Assembly (NCBI GenBank): GCA_023053545.1
Contig: JAKZAN010000001.1
Coordinates: 13,222,024 to 13,286,023 of the forward strand
Direction of reading: 5' to 3'
From: Lepidurus packardi
Lineage: Eukaryota > Arthropoda > Branchiopoda > Notostraca > Triopsidae
DNA length: 64,000 bases
Part shown: positions 53,006 through 64,000 of the stretch, piece after piece
Numbering within the stretch: the stretch's first letter is position 1
Layout: the number at the start of each line of letters is the position of its first letter
Translations under genes and position numbers: made by a program
Notes under the pieces: generated by a model
What the model saw: only the letters and a program-made list of their open reading frames with translations
Databases searched by the model: none
Told to the model about the DNA's origin: nothing

Positions 53006-53718
53006 AATGTGCTAACTTTGCTGTAGCTTTTTAAAAGCTAAATCTACAATAAATTATTTACAGAAATTACACAAGACGACAGGTTGGACTGCCGAATAAG
53101 CTGTGACAACGGAATGTTAGTAGTGGTGAACGTGGGTAGGTGGCTGTTCTGGGTTCGTCTGTTGGTGGTCTGTTGTGGTCGATTTTGAAATGTGTAGAGG
53201 TTTTTAGCTGTGCCAGTCTATGATTTTTATTTACTGTTGATTTTTAAAGAAACGGCTTTGTTTGATGTCATGTCATTATTATGGCATTAATTATGGTATT
53301 CTGTAAGTCCTAAAACTATTTGATATAGAGCAGAAAACGGACTTGACTGATAGGAGAAAAGATGGTCAGTAAAAATATGAAATGTTATCAAGTTATATGT
53401 ATCAAAGCATTTATCAATAGATATTAAGTTGTATCAAAATTTATCAGAAATGCGAATTAAAATGCGAACCAAATGCGAAACGATAACGAACTGAAATTGC
53501 ATGTTTTTTTTTTTTTTTTTATTGGCATGTTTTAATGGTTTGCTTTTTAGCTGTGATTTTTATTAATGTTATTAGCTGTGATTATAATATCAGAAGACAT
53601 TTGCGTTATTGGTAGATATATATTTTGTAAGTTTTTCGCTAATACAGTGAATTCACTATTACATGCAATGCAAATACAAATCTAGGTTATTTAGAATAAA
53701 AATGTTGACAAAACAATA
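53006..53718. other. Spacer between GNA1 promoter and the transposon region
   Basis: The first 150 bp should hold the GNA1 promoter. A T17 tract at 53504-53520 (A17 on the minus strand) and short repeats of ATGCGAA (53450-53480) lie downstream of the RPA-like ORF and may mark the 3' border of the mobile element. No Helitron 3' hairpin could be placed with confidence. Confidence 0.4.
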
Positions 53719-54774
53719 TTATTTTTTCTTGGTGACGTTGACGATTTCTTTTTTTTCTAGGTCTACCGTGAAGTCGAAGTCTTTTGTCGTTAGTAATTTC
53801 ACGATGACAGCATTCGCAGTGTCTGGAGTCAGTTGTAGAGTTTCTTCTTGTTTGCAGAAGTCTTTTAGTATGGTTTCTGTCATCGATGCTTCGATAATGT
53901 TATTATCGTTGAAGAAACCCACTGTGCCTTGGAAAGTTAGTGGAGTCGTTTGTCTAAGTTGAATTTTTTTGCAGTTTGTGCACGTAATGGTAGGGTCATC
54001 GTTATCTGGAATGGTCGGTTGTCGTTCTGTTTTTTTTTTGCAGGCTAGGCAGGTTTGGAAAATACCAATGTTGCAGTGGGCTATGGCTTCCAGTATGATG
54101 GGCTCCGTTGTGTCGTCTAAAATGGGTTGCTGGATGTCCAGTTGGGCTTCTGTTCTTGTAAAGAACGATTGCTGCGTCAAGGCGAAGTTTTGATAATCTT
54201 GATTATAGATGACATCGGTAATTTCGTAAACTTTGTTTTTTTCGATAGTAACTGTTTGGTTTTTCCAGGTAATTAGTGTGGAAGTACAGGTATCGTCTCC
54301 AATTGTTATTTCGCGGAACGTTTGCCCTTTGTTCGTTGTCTTCTCTTCGCTAATGTTTTGGATTTGAACGATGATTTTGTAACGGGTGTCGGGAAACTCT
54401 ATACAAGTTTGAAGTGTGGCTTGTTGCTGTTTTCTTGGCGAATAATTAAATTTGAGCGTTTGATTTGTCTCGCTGATTTGCGAAGATTGGGTAATCTTAA
54501 TAAGATCGTATTTAGTTCTTTTTTGTGGAGTCTGACCTGAAGGTGAGCTATTCGGTAGGATTTGGATGGTGATGGGTATCTTGGCGGTCGAATAACGTTT
54601 AATTCTGCTATAGGAGCCAGCAATAAACGACAAACATTCTTCGTATGTATTGTCCGACGTCTGCAGAAAAAAGCGAAAATTTTGGCCTGGAATTTTGGTG
54701 TACTTCGATGGACTCTGGTTTTGGCGCAAAGGGGTTATGTCATGGACGTACCCGGTGTAAGCGTCTGCTCCCAT
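53719..54774 (-). CDS. RPA1-like single-strand DNA-binding protein of a Helitron/Helentron
   Basis: 351 residues from an ACCATGG start. It resembles the large RPA subunit in its DNA-binding core. A first OB-fold (about 1-112) contains YVHDITPLR and FRFFLQTSDNTYEECLSF. A second (about 118-212) contains IGDDTCTSTLITW and a KNKVYEITDV motif. A C-terminal OB-fold (about 225-320) carries a four-cysteine zinc ribbon, C242-C245 and C265-C268. Helitrons of plants and animals often carry such RPA genes, thought to coat single-stranded DNA during rolling-circle-type transposition. It lies on the same strand as, and about 8 kb downstream of, the helicase-endonuclease ORF. The frame is fully open, so it may still be expressed. 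A diverged host RPA paralogue is less likely given the neighbourhood. Confidence 0.8.
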   Translation of the reverse strand: MGADAYTGYVHDITPLRQNQSPSKYTKIPGQNFRFFLQTSDNTYEECLSFIAGSYSRIKRYSTAKIPITIQILPNSSPSGQTPQKRTKYDLIKITQSSQISETNQTLKFNYSPRKQQQATLQTCIEFPDTRYKIIVQIQNISEEKTTNKGQTFREITIGDDTCTSTLITWKNQTVTIEKNKVYEITDVIYNQDYQNFALTQQSFFTRTEAQLDIQQPILDDTTEPIILEAIAHCNIGIFQTCLACKKKTERQPTIPDNDDPTITCTNCKKIQLRQTTPLTFQGTVGFFNDNNIIEASMTETILKDFCKQEETLQLTPDTANAVIVKLLTTKDFDFTVDLEKKEIVNVTKKK

Positions 54775-54785
54775 GGTTGCCGTTT

Positions 54786-54873
54786 CTGGTGGAAAGAGAA
54801 TAAGACATGATGAGAAGAGTTGCAGTGAAGAACTATTGGATTAAAAAGTTGTGAAATGAAACTATTTACTTAC
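54786..54873 (-). other. Candidate 5' UTR intron of the RPA-like gene
   Basis: On the minus strand a donor GCAAAA/GTAAGT (54873-54868) and an acceptor TTTCCACCAG/AAACGG (54788-54786) sit 11 bp before the start ATG. The 88-bp intron size fits the local genes. Inferred from sequence only. Confidence 0.5.
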
Positions 54874-54981
54874 TTTTGCAATAGGGTGTTTCGGAATGGT
54901 GAGGTGAAATTGCTTTCAATTTCTTTTTTGGAACTGTATGATGAATATTGATTTGCACTTAGTGTTTGGGAGCTGTGAGTG

Positions 54982-55858
54982 GACTGTTTTCTGTCATTCC
55001 GTGTGAGGTCTTTTATAGTCGGGTTCTATCGTAGAGTTGATGCCTGGAAGAGTAGGTTCTTCGTAAAGTCAAGTTCGGTCAAAGTCCAATCATGGAGGCA
55101 AAGGTTCAAGTCAATTAGTCAGGTCATTTTCTTCCTTTTGTTAATGAAAAGGGTACAATTTAGAAAGAAAAAATTTCAAAGGTGTACCAGCAGTTAGGGA
55201 TGGTCAATTGAAATTTGTATCCTTAGTTCGAGTGTCAAAGCACATTTTGAAGTTTTCTTGCTTAGTAGCTGGATGCAGTTGTCTTATTGTTTGCCGCTTT
55301 TGGTGTGTTTTTAAAAGGTGTCACGTTGTGGAAGGCAGTTAAATTGCAGTTGGGTTATGCGTATATCGAGTTAAAATAGAGAAAAATACATGATGGTTTT
55401 GTATTATACGGAAATCCCAAACTATTTATCTAAAATGCAAGAAATATATATTATGTACCTGAGGTAAATCTTTGAAAATGAAAACATCATATTTGTTTTA
55501 AAACATACCAATATTTTGAAATGTACTAAAATTGGTAAAAAAAGTGTTGACCGTTTAATTGGGTGGGAGGGTCCAAACGTCGTGAAATTTGTATGACGCC
55601 GCATTTATGGACGTTCCCTTATTAATAGGGAATGCTTTTCCTTAAAATAGCTTTCGATAATGATCGAAGCCATTTATTCGTAGGGCAATTCGTTTTACGA
55701 CTTGATGATTTTAGAATGGTTGGAAATTTTTTGGATTGTTATTTTTACAAACGAAATAGAATCGGTGGTATCTATGCCGGTATTGGTGCTCATGGGAAAT
55801 GTTGTCATATTCCATACCTACTATAAGGAAATACTTATAGAACAACATTATAGTTTCA
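54982..55858. repeat. 0.88-kb direct repeat, copy 1
   Basis: Starts ACTGTTTTCTGTCATTCCGT and ends near ATAGTTTCA. It matches 56599-57636 over its whole length with scattered substitutions and small indels, once a 159-bp insertion in copy 2 is removed. No coding potential. The repeat pair probably arose by segmental duplication inside the transposon, or represents two nested elements. Confidence 0.92.
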
Positions 55859-56598
55859 CCTGATTATTGCTGAGCTGCGTAACTGTCCGTGTTAAGAACG
55901 TGGAATATTCGATTTGTTATTTATGATTAATAGCAGAAAAATGTATTTAAAATGTGTGATCTGAATGTACATTTTACTGTCACTGGGTGTTTGCGGAGTA
56001 TATTATTGTGTCTGTCTTTTTGCGATGCGGAATTTTGTACTGCTTAGCTATATGATGTGATTATGGCATGTTTTGTAGCTTCGTATTTACAAGTCTGACA
56101 TTTGAATGTAAACAACTTTATGATCGGAATATACCGGGAGTTGAACAAATTTTTGGGCTTCGGCACAGCATGTATAAATTGGTGTGGTTGGGAGTTTTCC
56201 TTTTTTTATTTGTATTGTGTGTAAGTGGCGTATTCCGTGTAGCCTGCAGTAATAAGACAAGGTACGTATTTGAAAGTGCTGTCGATCGAGGGATTAGTGA
56301 AAGTAGTGAATTTTGTTGTTAAAGCATTTATTTTGTTAACGTACCGAAAGTTGCAAAATTCTTACGTTTCAGTTCAAAAAGGGTGTAGGGGACTTTTTTC
56401 TTTTTGTCGTATGTTTACGTTTGTACTCATCAGGGCTGAAGCTACTCGATGTCTTGATACGACAGGGAATTTCGCCATAGTTTATGTGGACTGTAAGAAA
56501 CAAAAATTATATTCATGACGTTATAAGTGAAAGAGTAACGTGGTTAAGGTCAATAAAAACGCTTACCGAAAGTTGAACAAATCCATATGTATCGGTCC
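55859..56598. other. Spacer between the two 0.88-kb repeats
   Basis: Contains the endonuclease C-terminal remnant (56087-56131), and one or two units of the 200-bp array family: TACCGGGAGTTGAACAAATT at 56132, and the donor-like motifs at 56340 and 56561. Confidence 0.7.
56087..56131 (-). pseudogene. C-terminal remnant of the EEP endonuclease
   Basis: Reads YSDHKVVYIQMSDL and a stop on the minus strand. The end of the intact domain at 63090 reads YSDHKIVYIEIPKS and a stop. The SDH motif is the catalytic C-terminal motif of the EEP fold. The homology stops abruptly upstream, where an array-type unit begins, so this is a break point left by recombination or by a second truncated element. Confidence 0.75.
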
Positions 56599-57636
56599 AA
56601 CTGTTTTCTGTCATTCCGTGTGAGGTCTTTTATAGTCGGGTTCTATCGTAGAGTTGACGTGTGGAAGAGTAGATTCTTCGTAAAGTCAAGTTCGGTCAAA
56701 GTTGAATCATTAGGAGAAAGGTTTAAGTCATTAGTCAAGTCATTTTCCTCGCTTTGTTAATGAAAAGGGTAAATTAAGAAAGAAAAAATTTCAAAGGTGT
56801 AGAAGCAGTAGCGACAGTCAATTGTAATTCTCATCCTTATTTCGAGTGTCAAAGCACGTTCTGAAGTTTTCTTGCTTGGTAGGGATAAGGGGTGGACTGG
56901 CCTATGGGGCATTGGGGCAGGTGCCTCATGTGCCGGCTCAAATGCCCCATGCGGCGGCTCAAATTCCTTCTTTATTACTCAGCGGCACCGGCAGGTAGAA
57001 AATCCCCATTGCCCGCTGTAGAGCCAGTCCGCTCCGGGTAGGGATGCAGTTAATTGTCACTGATGTTTGCCGCTTTTGTGTGTTTTTAAAGGGTGTCATG
57101 TTGTGGAAGGCAGTTGAGAAATTGTAGTTGGGCTACGTATGGAGTGGAAATATAGAAAATACTTGATGGTTTTGTATGACAGGGAAATCCGAAACTATTT
57201 ATCTAAAATGCAAGAAATATATATTATGTACATGAGGTAAATCTTTGAAAATGGAAACATCGTATTTGTTTTAAAACTTACCAATATTTTGAAATGTTCT
57301 AAAATTGGTAACAAAGTGTTGACCGTTTGGCCGGTTTGGGTGGATGGGTCTAAATGGCGTGAAATTTTTATGACGCCGCGTTTACGGACGCTCCCTTATT
57401 AATTGGGATACTGGTTTTCCTTGAAGTATAGTTTTCGATAATGATCGAAGCCATTTATTCGTAGGGGAATTCGTTATACAAGCTGATGATTTTATAATGT
57501 TTGTAAATTTTCTGGATTGTTATTTTTACAAACGAAATAGAATCGGTGGCATCTATATATATAGTCGTGTTATGGGAAATCTTGTCATATTCCACCCACT
57601 ATGAGGAAATACTTGTAGAACAACGTTTTAGTTTCA
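56599..57636. repeat. 0.88-kb direct repeat, copy 2, with a MITE insertion
   Basis: Same sequence as 54982-55858. The 1038-bp span falls to 879 bp after removal of the MITE at 56887-57037 and one target-site copy, matching copy 1 (877 bp). Confidence 0.92.
56887..57037. mobile_element. hAT-type MITE, 151 bp
   Basis: Flanked by an exact 8-bp duplication GTAGGGAT (56879-56886 and 57038-57045). The termini AAGGGGTGGACTGGC and GCCAGTCCGCTCCGG are inverted repeats close to the hAT-type CAGGGG..GGACTGGC ends. Copy 1 of the surrounding repeat lacks it, giving a natural empty site. Internal short repeats of GGCTCAAAT.CC. Confidence 0.88.
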
Positions 57637-58270
57637 GTTATTTACTTACTTTAGTCTGTGGGAGTTTGGAAATGGCAGCTGAAGGCGGTGGGAAAGTGTG
57701 CTAGTGTTTGATGTAGTGTTTGTTGTAAAATGAGAATGAACGTAAGTGTTGCGGGACAGCAAGACGTGAAAGGTCTGAGTGTGATACGCACGGTATTGTT
57801 GATGAATCCTGTATCTTGTTGAATACATGATATTCTAGGCAAAACTGTGAAAATCAATATTTGTCAAATAGTTGTATTCCAAATTCTAGAGTGAAAGGAG
57901 CTGATTAGACTATATGTGTAGTTATATATATACACTTTTGTAGACTTTGGGACGATTGTATAAATCTTTTTTGTTTTCGGTATTCTTTAGAATTATTTTC
58001 ACATATCGTATTTGCAGATGAATTTATTTGAATTATTATTTACTTATGTACATTTGCTTTGTATAATTATATTTATATAATTTAACAGGCATTGCCCATT
58101 TTGTTATGTATTCGATGAGGCATATACATTTGTGTGATTCTGATAGGCTTGAAGCTCCGTATTTGGTAATTGAATGAAAATAACTTTGTGATCTAATAGT
58201 ACGTTTCATGAACAGTTGTAGAATTAGGTATGTTTGAGTAAATATGATGTAACGTTAATGATGAATATAG
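57637..58270. other. AT-rich spacer
   Basis: No gene recognised. The start (57637-57660) holds ATTTACTTACTTT, a minus-strand GTAAGTAAAT donor-like site resembling the one upstream of the RPA-like gene. Confidence 0.5.
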
Positions 58271-58401
58271 CAGGCCCGTATCAGGGGGGGGGGGGGGTTT
58301 GGGGGTTCAAACCCCCCTCCCCGAAATGTTTTTTCTCCATGACGATATTATATACTACCCCCCAAAACCCCTCCGGAACCAAAATCCTGGATAGGGGCCT
58401 G
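58271..58401. mobile_element. hAT-type MITE, 131 bp, G/C-rich
   Basis: The ends CAGGCCCGTATCAGG and, inverted, CAGGCCCCTATCCAGG form terminal repeats. The flanks GAATATAG (58263-58270) and GAGTATAG (58402-58409) match at 7 of 8 positions, as in an aged hAT target duplication. The interior holds a G-tract and an inverted GGGGGTTCAAACCCCC hairpin, and has no coding potential. Confidence 0.85.
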
Positions 58402-58629
58402 GAGTATAGTCATATGAAGTAATATATATGTTGGTTTGAGTCAGGGGTTTGAGTATGTCAGCAATTTTGAGAGCTTATGTACTGTGAGTAAAGAGTAAAA
58501 ATACAACAATCGTTTTGTAGCTTTGTATCGTTGTGAAGCAGGAATTTATTAGTACGAGACTGTGGGAATACACATTTTGTAAGTTACATATAGAGTCAGG
58601 CTTGGGCGACCTTGGAGTTGAATTGGACA

Positions 58630-60284
58630 CGGGGTTTGTGTTGTGTACAGACTGCTGAACTCGGGAATTAACGTGGAAAAAGCCAATGCTACCTAACATG
58701 TTGCTCAAGGCAAGTTGGGCGAAGTGAATTTCTTTGTCGCTAAATAGAACGATTCGGTCTCCGAGAAATAGAACGGTTTTTCGAAGCGGTTTTCGAAACT
58801 GTGGCGTCTTTCCTGGAGAAGGTTATCTCAATTTGCCTCTTTCAAGGACTGCTGAGTTCTGGCTGCGTGACTGGCAGGCTCTAATACGATATCGAGGTGG
58901 CAGGAATTTGTGCCCGTGATTTGGTTAAGTACGAAATTTGGCTGACTTTTTTTCGGCCCATAGTGCCTGGAAGACATGACATACTTTTCTTGGCCTCTCT
59001 TACAGAGTCTCAAGTTGTGGAGCACGGCGTCTTTCAACAGGACAGGACCAGGACGTATGGTGGACAGATCAGCTTTATATGAGCAACGCGATCGGGATAG
59101 CCATTGACCTTGGTCAAGACTTTTGTTGGAGACTTGCTGTCACTAGAGTCAACAAGGCGCAAATCTTCTTCCGTATTCTCGTCAACAGCAACGTAAAAAT
59201 AGAAGGCTACTTCGTCGTCTTCAAGTTTTGGGACCTGGAAGGAAAAATTGACTTTGTACTGGAATTAATTGTTATTATTGCCGGAACGATAACAACAAAT
59301 AAGTACGGATTATTATGCCCAGTTTTTAACGACAATTTGTACGAATCAACCCTATTTGACTGACACGTTTGTGAACGTCAAGTCCTACTCGTATGACTTA
59401 GACAACTCGTTGGTGGAAACTCGCTGAGTTAATTAATTTACCCTAGGTTTTGCTGTAAATCTTATAGTACAGTCAACTAAGACATGTTCATCTAGCGGCT
59501 GCTTAACAAACGCGGTTTCAAGTTCTAAGTATCCATTGGGTATATGTTGAACACCAAAGGTATGTCCGTCATGCTGAAGCCAACCATAGCTGTTCACCTT
59601 ACCGCCTTGGTCGCAAGTATGTTTTGAAAATAATTACGAAATTGTAGAACGCTCAGAAATGAAGCGGGATTTGACGAACCGTAGACCGCTGTGTCTCTGG
59701 CTGACTCGGCTCATGGCGAGACATATCAAAGTGGAATCAAAGACGCCAGATCGTGGGTGTGGAGGCCCAAGTAAACTGGTATGCCGGTAAGTACCCCAAA
59801 TCTAGCTCAGGTACAGTAAGGCCAGTGACAACCACCACCTTACAAGTCCAGTTTATTAAATTCACTTTCGAATTCTGGAAGTAACGATATAGTTTTTATC
59901 AAGATACCTTATTGGGCTCACTTGGGCTTACTTAAAGTCTTTACTCGAGTTTCCAGATAAGTTTGGTAGACGAAGTAAAATACAACTGATACGACTGCAG
60001 TAGGGAGGATACTGTAAACGCTACTGCTTTTTGAAGTACGCCGGCATGGTTTTCCTTTATTCTCTAAATTAAATAATTTGAATGTGATTTTCTATATAAT
60101 ATTAATAGGTTCTACATTACTGACGTTACCGGGATGCTTTACATGATCTATCTCATTATCGCTCTTGAAAGAACGGTTTTGTCTGTAGCTTTCTTAATTT
60201 GTCGAGTACATAACGATCCGCTATTATCTTTATAGGTATAGCATGGCTTCCCTTTGTCCTTGCGGGCTTGCGCTGTTGGGCCAT
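58630..60284 (-). pseudogene. MOGS: Decayed N-terminal half of mannosyl-oligosaccharide glucosidase (glucosidase I)
   Basis: Glucosidase I (GH63) removes the outermost glucose from N-glycans in the ER. Homology is read in pieces along the minus strand. A start-like MAQQRKPARTKG (60284) and cytosolic tail come first. A membrane segment follows, SSVYSILPTAVVSVVFYFVY (about 60025-59960), as in this type II protein. Next are WGTYR (59798), VYLGLHTHDLAS (about 59779) and YGWLQHDGHTFG to LETAFVK (59630-59442). A GT-AG intron follows (59441-59235), then VPKLEDDEVAFYFYVAVDE (59234 on), NFVLNQITGTNSCHLDIVLE (about 58940), FENRFEKPF, and FAQLALSNMLGSIGFF (about 58720). The pieces fall in different frames with stops between, so the gene is broken at several points. 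Retained introns exclude a processed pseudogene. The C-terminal catalytic half is absent. It is surrounded by transposon sequence. Confidence 0.8.
59235..59441 (-). other. Retained intron in the MOGS pseudogene, 207 bp
   Basis: Donor CCTAGG/GTAAAT and acceptor TTCCTTCCAG/GTCCCA. Removal joins FTAKPR to VPKLED in the same frame, so this segment derives from genomic DNA rather than mRNA. Confidence 0.75.
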
Positions 60285-60762
60285 TTACTGTAATATAAGT
60301 AAATTTTGTTAGCCGTTTTCATGTTTTTATATTAATATTGGGATTATAAGTTAAAAGAAAAAGGACTTCACTCGTGAAAAACTTACAGAAATACAGTATA
60401 GTAGAAATGTAATGTAAAAGAATATAAAAAAATACGTCTGTTGTTTTGAAAAAGTATGTAGAGGGCAGGCGCGTCACTTTTGCTATTGGTTGACACAAAA
60501 TTAAGCCGCGCTTGTTTTGACCAACTGGCTATTAGCAAAAGATTTGAGTAACTTTTTCATGACTTCAATTTAAATTCGATACATCTGAATCAAATTTATT
60601 GGTATTTTAATTTAAAAAATAATATTTTTTTATTCATGAATTGTGTTGGAGTGCATGAAATTGATACACTCCAAAACAGTTGATGACTGGAATAGATTTT
60701 AAATGTAATTAACTGTTAGTGATGTGACGAATTCACGGATATGGTTAAATTCAATAAGAAAA
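60285..60762. other. AT-rich spacer
   Basis: Upstream of the MOGS pseudogene start. No gene or repeat recognised. Confidence 0.5.
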
Positions 60763-61824
60763 AGCTTACCGAAAGTGTTATATAAATCCTTTTGTTTTGG
60801 CTCAGAAAGCTTGTCAGAGACTTCTTTGTGTGTGCATGTGGCCGAATCCATGAAGTTGACAATGTGAAAGGGTGTAGGAAATCAAATTTGCGTCTATGAG
60901 TTTACTGAAAGTAATCGTAAATGTCGGTATGATAATGCAATTAATGAAAGTTAATGGAAAAGCTTACCGAAAGTGACAAAGTTTTTAGGTTTCGGCCCGT
61001 AAAGTGAGGGATTGATACTTTTCTTGTTCTTTTTTTTATGTCATGTAGGCTATATCAGTGGCGGATTCCATACAGCCTGCACTATAACGAAGGGTATGTA
61101 TTTGAAGGTGTCTAGACAGGTTTGAGTGAAAGTAGTGAACTTTGTTATAATAAAGATTCATGTTGTTGAATTCTAAAAGGAAAACTTACCAGGAGTTGCA
61201 ACATTTCTAGGTTTCATCTCATTAAAGGGGTGTAGGGGACTCTTATTGTTATAAAGTGATGATTCCGTAAAACCAGCAGTCTGAAAGGGGTACGCGCGTA
61301 GTTGTATTGGTCTAGCTGTTTACATTGTCTGTCTCTGAAAAAGTAATAAACCTTGTTATTATTATATATAAGCTTTATATTCTTTACTTCAAGAAAGCTT
61401 ACCAAAAGGTTCAGGAATCTTTAGGATTGGTCTCGAAAAGTGTATTTGGGACCATACAGCATGCAGTGTGAACTTGAATTAGCTTCGTGTATGCAATAGT
61501 GACTTGTTTTTCACGTACAGCGTTGCTATAGTATTCAGCATTTACGGCTGTTGTATCATTAGATTTCACTAGGGTAGGAACTACTCAGTTTCTCAATATT
61601 ATACCACCGGGAATTCTGACATATGCTTTATGTGAACTGTAAGAAAGAAAGGGTATTTTGCATTTTACCGGAATTTTTTGTTTTTGCCTGCAAACAACTT
61701 TTTTAAGCATTTTAAACGTCGCTGATTCCAAAAAAAAAACAATCATTTTGCGCGGAAAGTATTATTTTACTATGTTTTATGTTGCTGTGTTTTACTATGG
61801 TTGCTGTTGAAGACAGGTATGTGA

Positions 61825-61862
61825 TTAGGTTAGGTTAGGTTACGTTAGGTTAGGTTACGTTA
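61825..61862. repeat. TTAGG-type telomere-like repeat, left block
   Basis: TTAGG units with regular TTACG variants, cut at GTTA by the foldback MITE. TTAGG is the usual arthropod telomere unit. Its position inside an element shows this is interstitial. Confidence 0.9.
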
Positions 61863-62107
61863 GGGCCGATTTCCACTGAAGGTTAAGGCGCTTAGCCTAT
61901 ATGCTTAAGACAATTCAAACAAAAATAATTCACCAAAAGGATAATTCATGATAATTCACCAAATAATTCAGTTTGATGAAGGAGGCGTAACCTCATAAAA
62001 CTGAATTATTTGGTGAATTGTCATGAATTATCCTTTTGGTGAATTATTTTTGTTTGAATTGTCTTAAGCATAGGCTAAGCGCCTTAACCTTCGGTGGAAA
62101 TCGGCCC
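61863..62107. mobile_element. Foldback MITE, PIF/Harbinger-like, inside the TTAGG array
   Basis: Nearly perfect 112-bp arms (61863-61974 and 61997-62107) with a 22-bp loop. The ends GGGCCGATTTCC and GGAAATCGGCCC are flanked by TTA on both sides (61860-61862 and 62108-62110). A TTA duplication with GGGCC-type ends fits PIF/Harbinger elements. The superfamily is inferred. Confidence 0.85.
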
Positions 62108-62198
62108 TTAGGTTAGGTTAGGTTACGTTAGGTTAGGTTAGGTTAGGTTAGGTTAGGTTAGGTTAGGTTACGTTAGGTTAGGTTAGGTTACGTTAGGT
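62108..62198. repeat. TTAGG-type telomere-like repeat, right block
   Basis: About 18 units of TTAGG with periodic TTACG variants, continuing the left block in register after the foldback insertion. Confidence 0.92.
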
Positions 62199-62760
62199 GA
62201 TGTCGATTTGGAATAAATGTTTTGTCGAAAAGGAATGATTATTACATACATAAGATTTCCATCTTTTGTGTTGCAAATTTCCATGATACAGTGTTTTCCG
62301 CGCGAAATGATTGCTTTTTTTTGGAATTACCGACCCTTAAAATGCCAGAAAAAATTGTTTGCAGGCAAAAACAAAAAATTCCGGTAAAGTGCAAAAACTC
62401 CGAAAGAAAATATGTATTCATGAAGTTAATTGAAGGAATTATATTATTACATTCAAATAGCGAAAACTTACCGAAAGTAGTACGAATCCTTATGTTTTGG
62501 CTGACAAAGGGTGTTGGAAACTTTTTTTATATGTTTATATGTCCCGAGTCCATAAAGCCGGTAGTGTCAAAGGGTAGGTAATTGAATTCGTCTATTAGGA
62601 ATCACTGAAAGTAGTAAAGTTGTTATTATCATATTGTAATGCGATTTGAATTATGAAAGTCAATAGGATAAGCTTACCGAAAGTTCAACAAGTTTTTAGG
62701 TTTCGGCTCGGATTTTCGTTTACCAATACCAATATTAGTAAAAAGTGGTGAGTTAACGGG

Positions 62761-63089
62761 TGGGTTGAACAGCAAACATCTGTTAGTTAGGTTTGTGGGT
62801 GGTCCCGTAGAAGGGAACCAATCCGTGGTTTTTTCGTGTTAGTTTCATGCATGATGGTTTCATGCGATCCTGCTAATTTCATTCAGTAAGTATAAGGACA
62901 TATATACGTACGGAAGTTTCACGGCGCGTGGCTGAATTGTGAAATAGTGTTAATAGTAATCGGTGATAACTTGTAGTATATCCATATTGTTGAGTATCTT
63001 GTATTGTAATTGCTGACCATCTTGTCACTTTTAGTATACAGAATATTTAACTGCTTATCCGTAGGGTATAAGAATCGGAAATGTCGTGC
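62761..63089. other. Region downstream of the helicase-endonuclease stop codon
   Basis: A probable 3' flank of the ORF on the minus strand. No polyadenylation signal or further repeat was placed with confidence. Confidence 0.4.
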
Positions 63090-64000
63090 TTATGACTTTG
63101 GGATTTCAATGTAAACAATTTTATGATCGGAGTAATATGTTTCGTATACGCCGGTTTTGGGTTGATTAAAACTGGTGTAAATATGATCTAGTGTTGACAT
63201 ATAGTCAGTGGTATAGGCGGTTATGTGTTGTTGAAGACGTAGGGGTTTAAGTATTTGTGTTACTTTCGATAAATCTGTTGCACGAGTGTGTATGTCTATA
63301 TTGAAATCACCTATAATTACTATATTTTCATAAGATGTATCTATATCACTTATTAAATTGTGTAGCGCATCAAAGAAATTTTCGACGTTGAACCCGTGGT
63401 GTCTGTACAAAACGTAGATTGCAAGTGATAGTTGTGCAATATGTAAACTGCAAAGTTCGAGGTATTTGTTGGAACAACGTCTAGTGAACATTCCGTCGAG
63501 TTTTGAATACATAACCATTCCATAAGGTGAATTTCCTTTGTGATTTGTAGTGAAATCCATACGGTGTAGATCAAAAGAATCTAGTTTATAATCAGCGTCG
63601 TAGTCTGCCGCGCATAAACGAGTCTCACATGCAGCAAATACAGTAGTTGCTTTGATGAACGGATCATTTACAAGGTCAAGGAAATGTTTACGCAATGAGA
63701 CTATATTTAAAAATGCAATCATTTTTGTTTTTGTATGAACAATAGATCTTGGATCTAATAACGTTAACTGTTGAGGTTTCGTTCGTAAACGATCCATTTC
63801 TTTTTTGGTGTCGGAGGAAATTTTAATACCAGGTTCATTGAGATCTTCTATAAAAAGTCCCTCAAGCCGTTTGGCCCTACTGATAGCAACGTAATGCATG
63901 TTTGACGTAGCTCTTCCTAAATTGACAATTACCTGCTCCATTGTTTGTCCTTGTGCACGGTGAATTGTTTTCGAGCTGTTTGGCCGTAGTGGATACTGGA
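63090..64000 (-). CDS. Helentron Rep/helicase-EEP endonuclease, C-terminal part, runs off the window
   Basis: The frame is open to the window edge, so this is the 3' end of a larger gene on the minus strand. The first part is the last helicase motifs of a PIF1-type superfamily 1 helicase: TIHRAQGQTMEQV (motif V) and MHYVAISRAKRL (motif VI). After a linker an EEP endonuclease domain follows. Counted from the Met at 63941 it shows Asn79 in FLNIVSLRKH, Glu106 in AACETRL, GDFNID (211-216), LDH (251-253) and the C-terminal SDH (271-273). All main catalytic positions are kept. This fusion is typical of Helentrons, a class of Helitrons. Rep HUH motifs should lie further right, outside this window. 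The RPA-like gene 8 kb downstream supports the assignment. Confidence 0.9.
   Translation of the reverse strand, partial: QYPLRPNSSKTIHRAQGQTMEQVIVNLGRATSNMHYVAISRAKRLEGLFIEDLNEPGIKISSDTKKEMDRLRTKPQQLTLLDPRSIVHTKTKMIAFLNIVSLRKHFLDLVNDPFIKATTVFAACETRLCAADYDADYKLDSFDLHRMDFTTNHKGNSPYGMVMYSKLDGMFTRRCSNKYLELCSLHIAQLSLAIYVLYRHHGFNVENFFDALHNLISDIDTSYENIVIIGDFNIDIHTRATDLSKVTQILKPLRLQQHITAYTTDYMSTLDHIYTSFNQPKTGVYETYYSDHKIVYIEIPKS

Follow-up and report, generated by a model that had tools for sequence, protein, structure and literature searches.

A probable three-transposon nest around a telomere-type repeat array in Lepidurus packardi, with the repeats in a predicted transposase intron

The unit in the window and its nested palindrome

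A stretch of 64,000 nucleotides from Lepidurus packardi (C1:13222024-13286023; hereafter the window) contains a short unit in which inverted arms surround an array of TTAGG and TTACG repeats. A first-pass annotation had drawn attention to these arms and to the position of the array far from a chromosome end, and both points hold: the arms (61656-61737 and 62315-62396) are 89% complementary across 82 nt and reach about 100 bp when the alignment starts at the exact ends, and about 764 kb separate the unit from the end of the 14.05-Mb contig. The extent given there, 61656..62396, described a real element but not its true bounds, 61651-62401, which are set by 8-bp repeats, GAAAGAAA, directly outside both exact ends. 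The parts of the unit are listed below, the element as a whole being recognized from its ends and duplications, its alignment to a longer relative (locus L024) and the alignment of its arms.

61643..61650, unstranded: left 8-bp target site duplication, GAAAGAAA
61651..62401, + strand: non-autonomous, decayed transposon of the Merlin superfamily, 751 bp with the palindrome counted
61651..61760, + strand: left terminal inverted repeat, starting GGGTATTTTGC, about 100 bp
61790..61816, + strand: remnant of transposase exon 2 (its 3′ end), from alignment to L024
61817..61862, + strand: predicted intron 2, with donor GTATGTGA and then the TTAGG/TTACG array as far as the nested insertion
61863..62107, unstranded: 245-bp near-perfect palindrome, PIF/Harbinger-like, with TTA duplicated at 61860-61862 and 62108-62110
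62108..62198, + strand: second part of the TTAGG/TTACG array, 18 units
62199..62216, + strand: remnant of the transposase C-terminal codons with the stop (GATGTCGATTTGGAATAA), brought next to the array by an internal deletion
62292..62401, − strand: right terminal inverted repeat, with the terminus GCAAAAACTCC
62402..62409, unstranded: right 8-bp target site duplication, GAAAGAAA

This copy runs from the end of exon 2 through the splice donor, the array and the last codons with the stop to the right arm, and the 21 bases immediately 5′ of the donor are identical to those of L024. The array itself occupies about 61825-61862 and 62108-62198, being split by the palindrome, which is absent from the first-pass annotation and whose 80-nt arms are 98% complementary. 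PIF/Harbinger elements are defined by a 3-bp TWA target duplication (PMC4482050), and TTA stands on both sides of the palindrome; by genome search it was matched in the 15 copies of a larger carrier, a Helentron-type element, and nowhere else. A known structured RNA was also considered and dropped, as Rfam gave no match within the window at gathering thresholds.

Merlin relatives and their transposase gene

The 108.6-Mb assembly (344 contigs) was searched with the unit, and the best 40 of 89 candidates were scored, so that the copy and locus counts are lower bounds. At least 15 near-full-length copies were found, that of the window included, and the arms were matched at no fewer than seven further places (L024-L030). 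L025 and L026 have common flanks, as have L029 and L030; each pair looks like one insertion that was duplicated, and given these flanks the free loci, at least seven, fall at five sites.

Among the matches found, L024 is the sole copy with both ends and all exons. In this 2.24-kb element the same arms surround a transposase gene, whose frame is open for 324 aa, with no internal stop, once two predicted introns (62 and 311 nt) are taken out. The second predicted intron is composed of the donor GTATGTGA, a 267-nt TTAGG array with TTAGC variants and a 36-nt tail ending in TTTCAG; that is, a TTAGG-type array would make up most of a predicted transposase intron. The protein, scanned in a typed version two residues short, matches Pfam DDE_Tnp_IS1595 at residues 149-263 (E 3.6e-18), and this match crosses the second junction. 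Candidate catalytic D, D and E, read by eye, lie in EIDESKF, ISDFWKAY and NSIESSW, and DDE_Tnp_IS1595 was the only Pfam match at E up to 0.01, no Zn_Tnp_IS1595 zinc finger being detected in the protein.

Merlin elements are defined by GG-ended inverted repeats of 24-462 bp, a target duplication of 8 or 9 bp, and a DDE_Tnp_IS1595 transposase with DDE residues and no Zn_Tnp_IS1595 (PMC8101967). L024 agrees with these published elements in its GG-ended repeats, 8-bp duplication and DDE_Tnp_IS1595 domain without the zinc finger; the window copy agrees in ends and duplications alone, its gene being reduced to short remnants, as is expected of a non-autonomous derivative. The ends GGGTATTTTGC and GGAGTTTTTGC are found in the window, L024, L025 and L026, and the 8-bp duplications differ by site: GAAAGAAA in the window, CTTTCTTA at L024 and GCACCCGC at L025/L026. 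TTAGG-bearing insertions of Merlin are present at three independent sites (window/Helentron, L024 and L025/L026), each with its own 8-bp duplication and two of them free elements besides the window, and L027 is a fourth site with a stub alone, in which just ATTAGGTTA remains after the donor, followed by a deletion. The exact splice-donor junction occurs at 19 places in the genome, namely the 15 Helentron copies, L024, L025, L026 and L027, against none for the backward control, and ATTAGG follows it directly in all 19; the junction is absent from L028, L029 and L030, which are uninformative about the array.

These copies bear directly on the test proposed in the first-pass annotation, by which the same arms with TTAGG interiors at unrelated loci would speak for mobility, and a single copy, or arms beside this array alone, for a local inverted duplication. 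The former was observed in the window, L024 and L025, with different target duplications, and the matches at L024-L030 are at odds with the latter. A local inverted duplication around an interstitial telomere scar of break repair or fusion, with no mobile element involved, could explain why arms bracket a telomere-type array, and break repair is a common explanation for short interstitial tracts (PMC9693754), but it is contradicted by the same arms at unrelated loci, the different 8-bp duplications and the transposase gene; this extremely improbable explanation was rejected because the dispersed copies have different target duplications.

A further peculiarity of the free loci is that the right-arm region is tandemly repeated in L024-L027, L029 and L030, in varying number; the L024 unit measures about 148 bp. 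Such growth of the terminal repeat is foldback-like.

How does this cargo compare with those already described? Several Merlin families contain internal tandem repeats, and it has been suggested that Merlin helps their spread (PMC8101967). The tandem repeat here differs from those published in that it is of the host telomere type and lies in a predicted transposase intron; words beginning with 'intron' or 'telomer' have no occurrence in the main text of that report (PMC8101967). Merlin elements and Helitrons have also been recorded from Daphnia pulex (PMC2884549), in a paper with no occurrence of 'telomer'. Tandem repeats are also known on MITEs, as in Xenopus (Hikosaka and Kawahara, 2004, in PMC6947457), and MITEs with (GTCY)n microsatellites have been described (Coates, 2011, in PMC6947457). 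The present case resembles these in that a short inverted-repeat element spreads a tandem repeat, and differs in that the repeat is telomere-type and the parent element and its gene can be identified (PMC6947457). In the titles and abstract openings of the open-licence literature searched, telomeric repeats in a transposase intron were not described. The superfamilies are thus known ones, and it is the position of the cargo that is unusual and informative.

The Helentron-type carrier

The Merlin unit lies within a much larger repeat, of which the following parts fall in the window.

53071..64000, − strand: part of a Helentron-type element that carries the Merlin unit and runs on to C1:13294586 (19,493 bp in total)
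53719..54774, − strand: 351-aa Helentron open reading frame, at the position where an RPA-like gene might be expected
63090..64000, − strand: C-terminal part of the Helentron Rep/helicase/endonuclease frame, with Exo_endo_phos

The main frame of this element, 2722 codons scanned as two adjoining halves, contains Helitron_like_N (in both halves), a PIF1 helicase and a C-terminal Exo_endo_phos (E 4.8e-06 and 4e-07) together with a zinc finger and DUF6570; a Rep (HUH) and a PIF1-type helicase are therefore in one frame with an AP-type endonuclease at its C-terminus. Helentrons are characterized by an RPA-like second gene, the lack of a target duplication, a T-rich target and subterminal inverted repeats (PMC4067079). 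The present element is like them in its Rep/helicase frame with a C-terminal endonuclease and in its defined ends without evident duplication (PMC4067079), and its second frame of 351 aa, which has no Pfam match at E up to 0.01, is close in size to the 358 aa of a Helentron RPA gene (PMC4067079). It is unlike them in having a Merlin/Harbinger nest with a telomere-type array between the two reading frames. When 11 left and 11 right ends were inspected by eye, without formal scoring, no duplication was evident, the left flanks were mostly A/T-rich and an inverted AAGCTGTGACAAC-type motif was seen close to both ends. Judged by its sequence, the 19,493-bp repeat is built like a Helentron.

Identity among the 15 copies reaches far outside the Merlin unit, at about 98.6-100% over long stretches. 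The first-pass annotation saw in the small element a possible spreader of the repeats, which agrees with its three insertion sites but not with these 15 near-identical copies: since the shared sequence runs far beyond the unit, they appear to have been spread by the 19.5-kb Helentron, which the small element would have entered once. Fifteen independent transpositions of the small element were rejected on the same ground, as the shared sequence extends through the whole Helentron. With 1,055 bases of Helentron flank to the left of the unit as query, all 15 full matches also held the Merlin unit, and no Helentron copy without the unit at this site was seen among the 40 of 46 candidates scored; because no empty site was found, the insertion of Merlin into the Helentron rests on the 8-bp duplication.

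Could the 15 copies instead be segmental duplications, or duplicates of the assembly, that owe nothing to Helentron transposition? Their high identity over long stretches (about 98.6-100%), the location of three of them on contigs of 21-27 kb and the right flank common to three copies would be understandable in that case. However, 33 of the 63 listed matches to the left edge start at the same edge within three bases, one of them being just 41 bases long, and all 11 left flanks inspected differ; moreover, the element encodes Rep, helicase and endonuclease, and its copies are spread over small contigs and five large ones, so that mere duplication seems very unlikely. At the right part, 16 of 44 matches, the window's included, cover the whole query, and most of the shorter ones stop at the same right edge. 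These counts are lower bounds, the left-edge search having scored 40 of 145 candidates and the right-part search 36 of 91.

Three minor features of the carrier were also noted. L065, L069 and L071, which are Helentron copies, have a common right flank and different left flanks. In L060 the left flank is similar to the right end of a related element, which might reflect a captured flank or elements arranged head to tail. Within the Helentron, window positions 55288-55858 and 57064-57636 form a direct duplication of about 570 bp, 86% identical, with 14 match places including the window.

Taken with the Helentron as carrier, the locus very likely consists of three nested transposons that surround a telomere-type array, one of them a Merlin with (TTAGG)n in its second predicted intron. 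The arms, the duplications, the transposase domain, the splice signals with the restored frame, the nesting and the dispersed copies can be read directly, and an outline of how they may have arisen is as follows: initially, a cut-and-paste transposon of the Merlin superfamily would have gained (TTAGG)n within the second intron of its transposase gene. If the gene is transcribed and the intron spliced as predicted, the array would be removed from the message, so that transposase is made and the array is carried at each move; being free of cost to the transposase, it can ride along with every transposition. A shorter Merlin derivative would then have arisen through an internal deletion that placed the array directly before the end of the gene; this derivative presumably inserted in the Helentron with formation of the 8-bp duplication, and a PIF/Harbinger-like palindrome would have inserted at a TTA of the array. 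Rolling-circle transposition of the Helentron would presumably then have distributed all this to 15 or more places. In general, internal deletions would yield short derivatives consisting chiefly of arms and array. The proposal of the first-pass annotation, that a mobile element with TTAGG cargo could spread the repeats, is supported in this outline, with the qualifications that the array belongs to a predicted intron and is not free cargo, and that most copies would owe their spread to the larger carrier.

Telomere-type arrays: identity, origin and distribution

An exact (TTAGG)5 has 104 matches in the 108.6-Mb assembly and the pattern read backwards has none, which indicates that the array is not due to chance. 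The last base of contig C3, the only contig end read, closes a (TTAGG)13 run, and for this reason TTAGG is very probably the telomere repeat of this genome. Near this end, L033 (C3:12865435-12866234) has two copies of a subtelomeric unit with a short TTAGG/TTTGG tract between them, and then the terminal (TTAGG)13.

The interior arrays and this chromosome end were compared in their variants. The first-pass annotation saw in the regular TTACG variants the amplification of one variant array; TTACG is indeed the mark of the Helentron-borne lineage, but L024-L026 have TTAGC variants instead, and the terminal run of C3 is pure TTAGG. Recent copying of the array from the telomere is unsupported, given TTACG or TTAGC in the arrays as against pure TTAGG at the C3 end. 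Among the 15 Helentron copies the array is constant, with three exceptions: the window copy is two units longer, and L019 and L020 each have one substitution.

As for how the repeats came to be in the intron, two explanations have to be weighed. In one, neither telomere nor telomerase was ever a source: a short intron contained a few TTAGG-like bases, and slippage enlarged them into a microsatellite, the present array. Its length changes by whole units, the window array being two units longer than those of the 14 other Helentron copies and the arrays of L025 and L026 differing by 10 nt, or two units, which favours continuing slippage, and it contains variant units, whereas the C3 end is pure TTAGG. 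Against this, the unit is exactly the chromosome-end repeat and unrelated elements in this genome also have TTAGG-type arrays, which is suggestive, not decisive, and we would give slippage close to an even chance. The other explanation is that the array entered the intron as a block, through telomerase acting at a break in the transposon or through capture of telomeric DNA. The identity of the unit with the chromosome-end repeat and the presence of such arrays in several element families favour a telomeric source, and insertion of telomeric repeats during break repair has been reported in primates and rodents (PMC7215372). On the other hand, the copies found include no array-free intron and no intermediate, and variants within the arrays are frequent, not telomere-pure; block entry is plausible, though we hold it short of even.

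Why, then, should telomere repeats form a transposase intron? UUAGG-like sites are preferred targets of arthropod hnRNP A/B proteins. If transcribed, the intron would be (UUAGG)n, an RNA like a telomere transcript that could offer dense potential hnRNP A/B sites. In L024, read-through into intron 2 stops the frame after VEDRYVIRLG, and retention of the intron may shorten the transposase to about 199 residues; such a product would lack the second D and the E and could act as a repressor. In the P element a repressor is made when the third intron is retained, and splicing of that intron is blocked with the help of hrp48, which corresponds in the fly to hnRNP A1 (PMC7776569). The likeness is that of a transposase intron whose retention would truncate the protein; the difference is that the P element belongs to another transposase superfamily and that intron regulation here is only conjectured (PMC7776569). 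By this analogy the array might be a working intron that controls transposase splicing much as the P element third intron does and is kept by selection, an improbable idea which, if true, would mean that telomere repeats are held in a transposon by selection and are not accidental cargo.

Short interstitial telomere tracts are often taken as scars of breaks or fusions. Besides the 104 exact (TTAGG)5 matches (23 loci), all recovered in fetched sequence, runs of four not preceded by G gave 24 matches at 18 loci, 12 of them new, and the resulting 35 loci comprise 34 interstitial ones and one chromosome end, runs of exactly four after G lying outside the census. When the 34 interstitial loci of INTERSTITIAL telomere-type DNA (at least four to five perfect TTAGG units) were sorted by enclosing element, 17 fell in this Merlin (14 Helentron-borne and three free), the fifteenth Helentron copy, L020, being outside the census because of a substitution. 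A second family of transposon-like elements, whose ends read CAACA(C/G)GTTCTCC, accounts for twelve, and one (L056) lies between other inverted arms. Thus, 30 of 34 are in transposon-like elements, a proportion that counts copies and corresponds to about three element founders (four with the L049 family, outside the census) as against four loci without a detected element. With half of the loci in one transposon lineage and 30 of 34 in transposon-like elements, the tracts here should not simply be read as marks of rearrangement. In four others (L031, L037, L052 and L059) the sequence inspected around the array gave no clear element. The longest interstitial TTAGG tract found is L031 (C86:58115-58454), about 340 bp with one interruption and with AAGGTAAGCG-type repeats on one flank; no inverted arms were seen within 450 bp and no element was recognized, which counts against the transposon idea.

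Reviews have proposed that interstitial telomeric sequences can originate from mobile elements (PMC6410037, PMC9693754). The idea that they bring telomeric repeats to internal sites is shared with the present case; in the reviews it is a proposal only, whereas here the carrier, its ends, its duplications and its copies are directly seen (PMC6410037, PMC9693754). The proposal becomes testable copy by copy, and the nest offers a concrete route by which telomere repeats could reach sites far from chromosome ends.

The second family is large: 577 candidates appeared at a first look, and with the best 40 scored, 40 of the 66 listed matches span the whole 480-base query, array included. Its 12 census loci were assigned because they resemble L040 outside the array (74-99% identity), in one half alone for L051 and, for L034, in a right half and in a palindromic relative, in which the counted array lies. 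The inverted ends are 13 bp long and imperfect, with one intact end alone in L036, L051 and L058. Of ten members examined by script, eight had both flanks readable, and all eight have 8-bp duplications, exact at six (L042, L043, L046, L050, L053 and L054) and imperfect at L055 and L057. The family is represented at L034-L036, L038-L048, L050, L051, L053-L055, L057 and L058 (for example, L040:1-480), with a degenerate TTAGG/TTAAG/TTAGC array and the palindromic relative in L034, L044 and L048. L049 and L056 are two more elements, in which TTAGG-type arrays lie between unrelated inverted arms.
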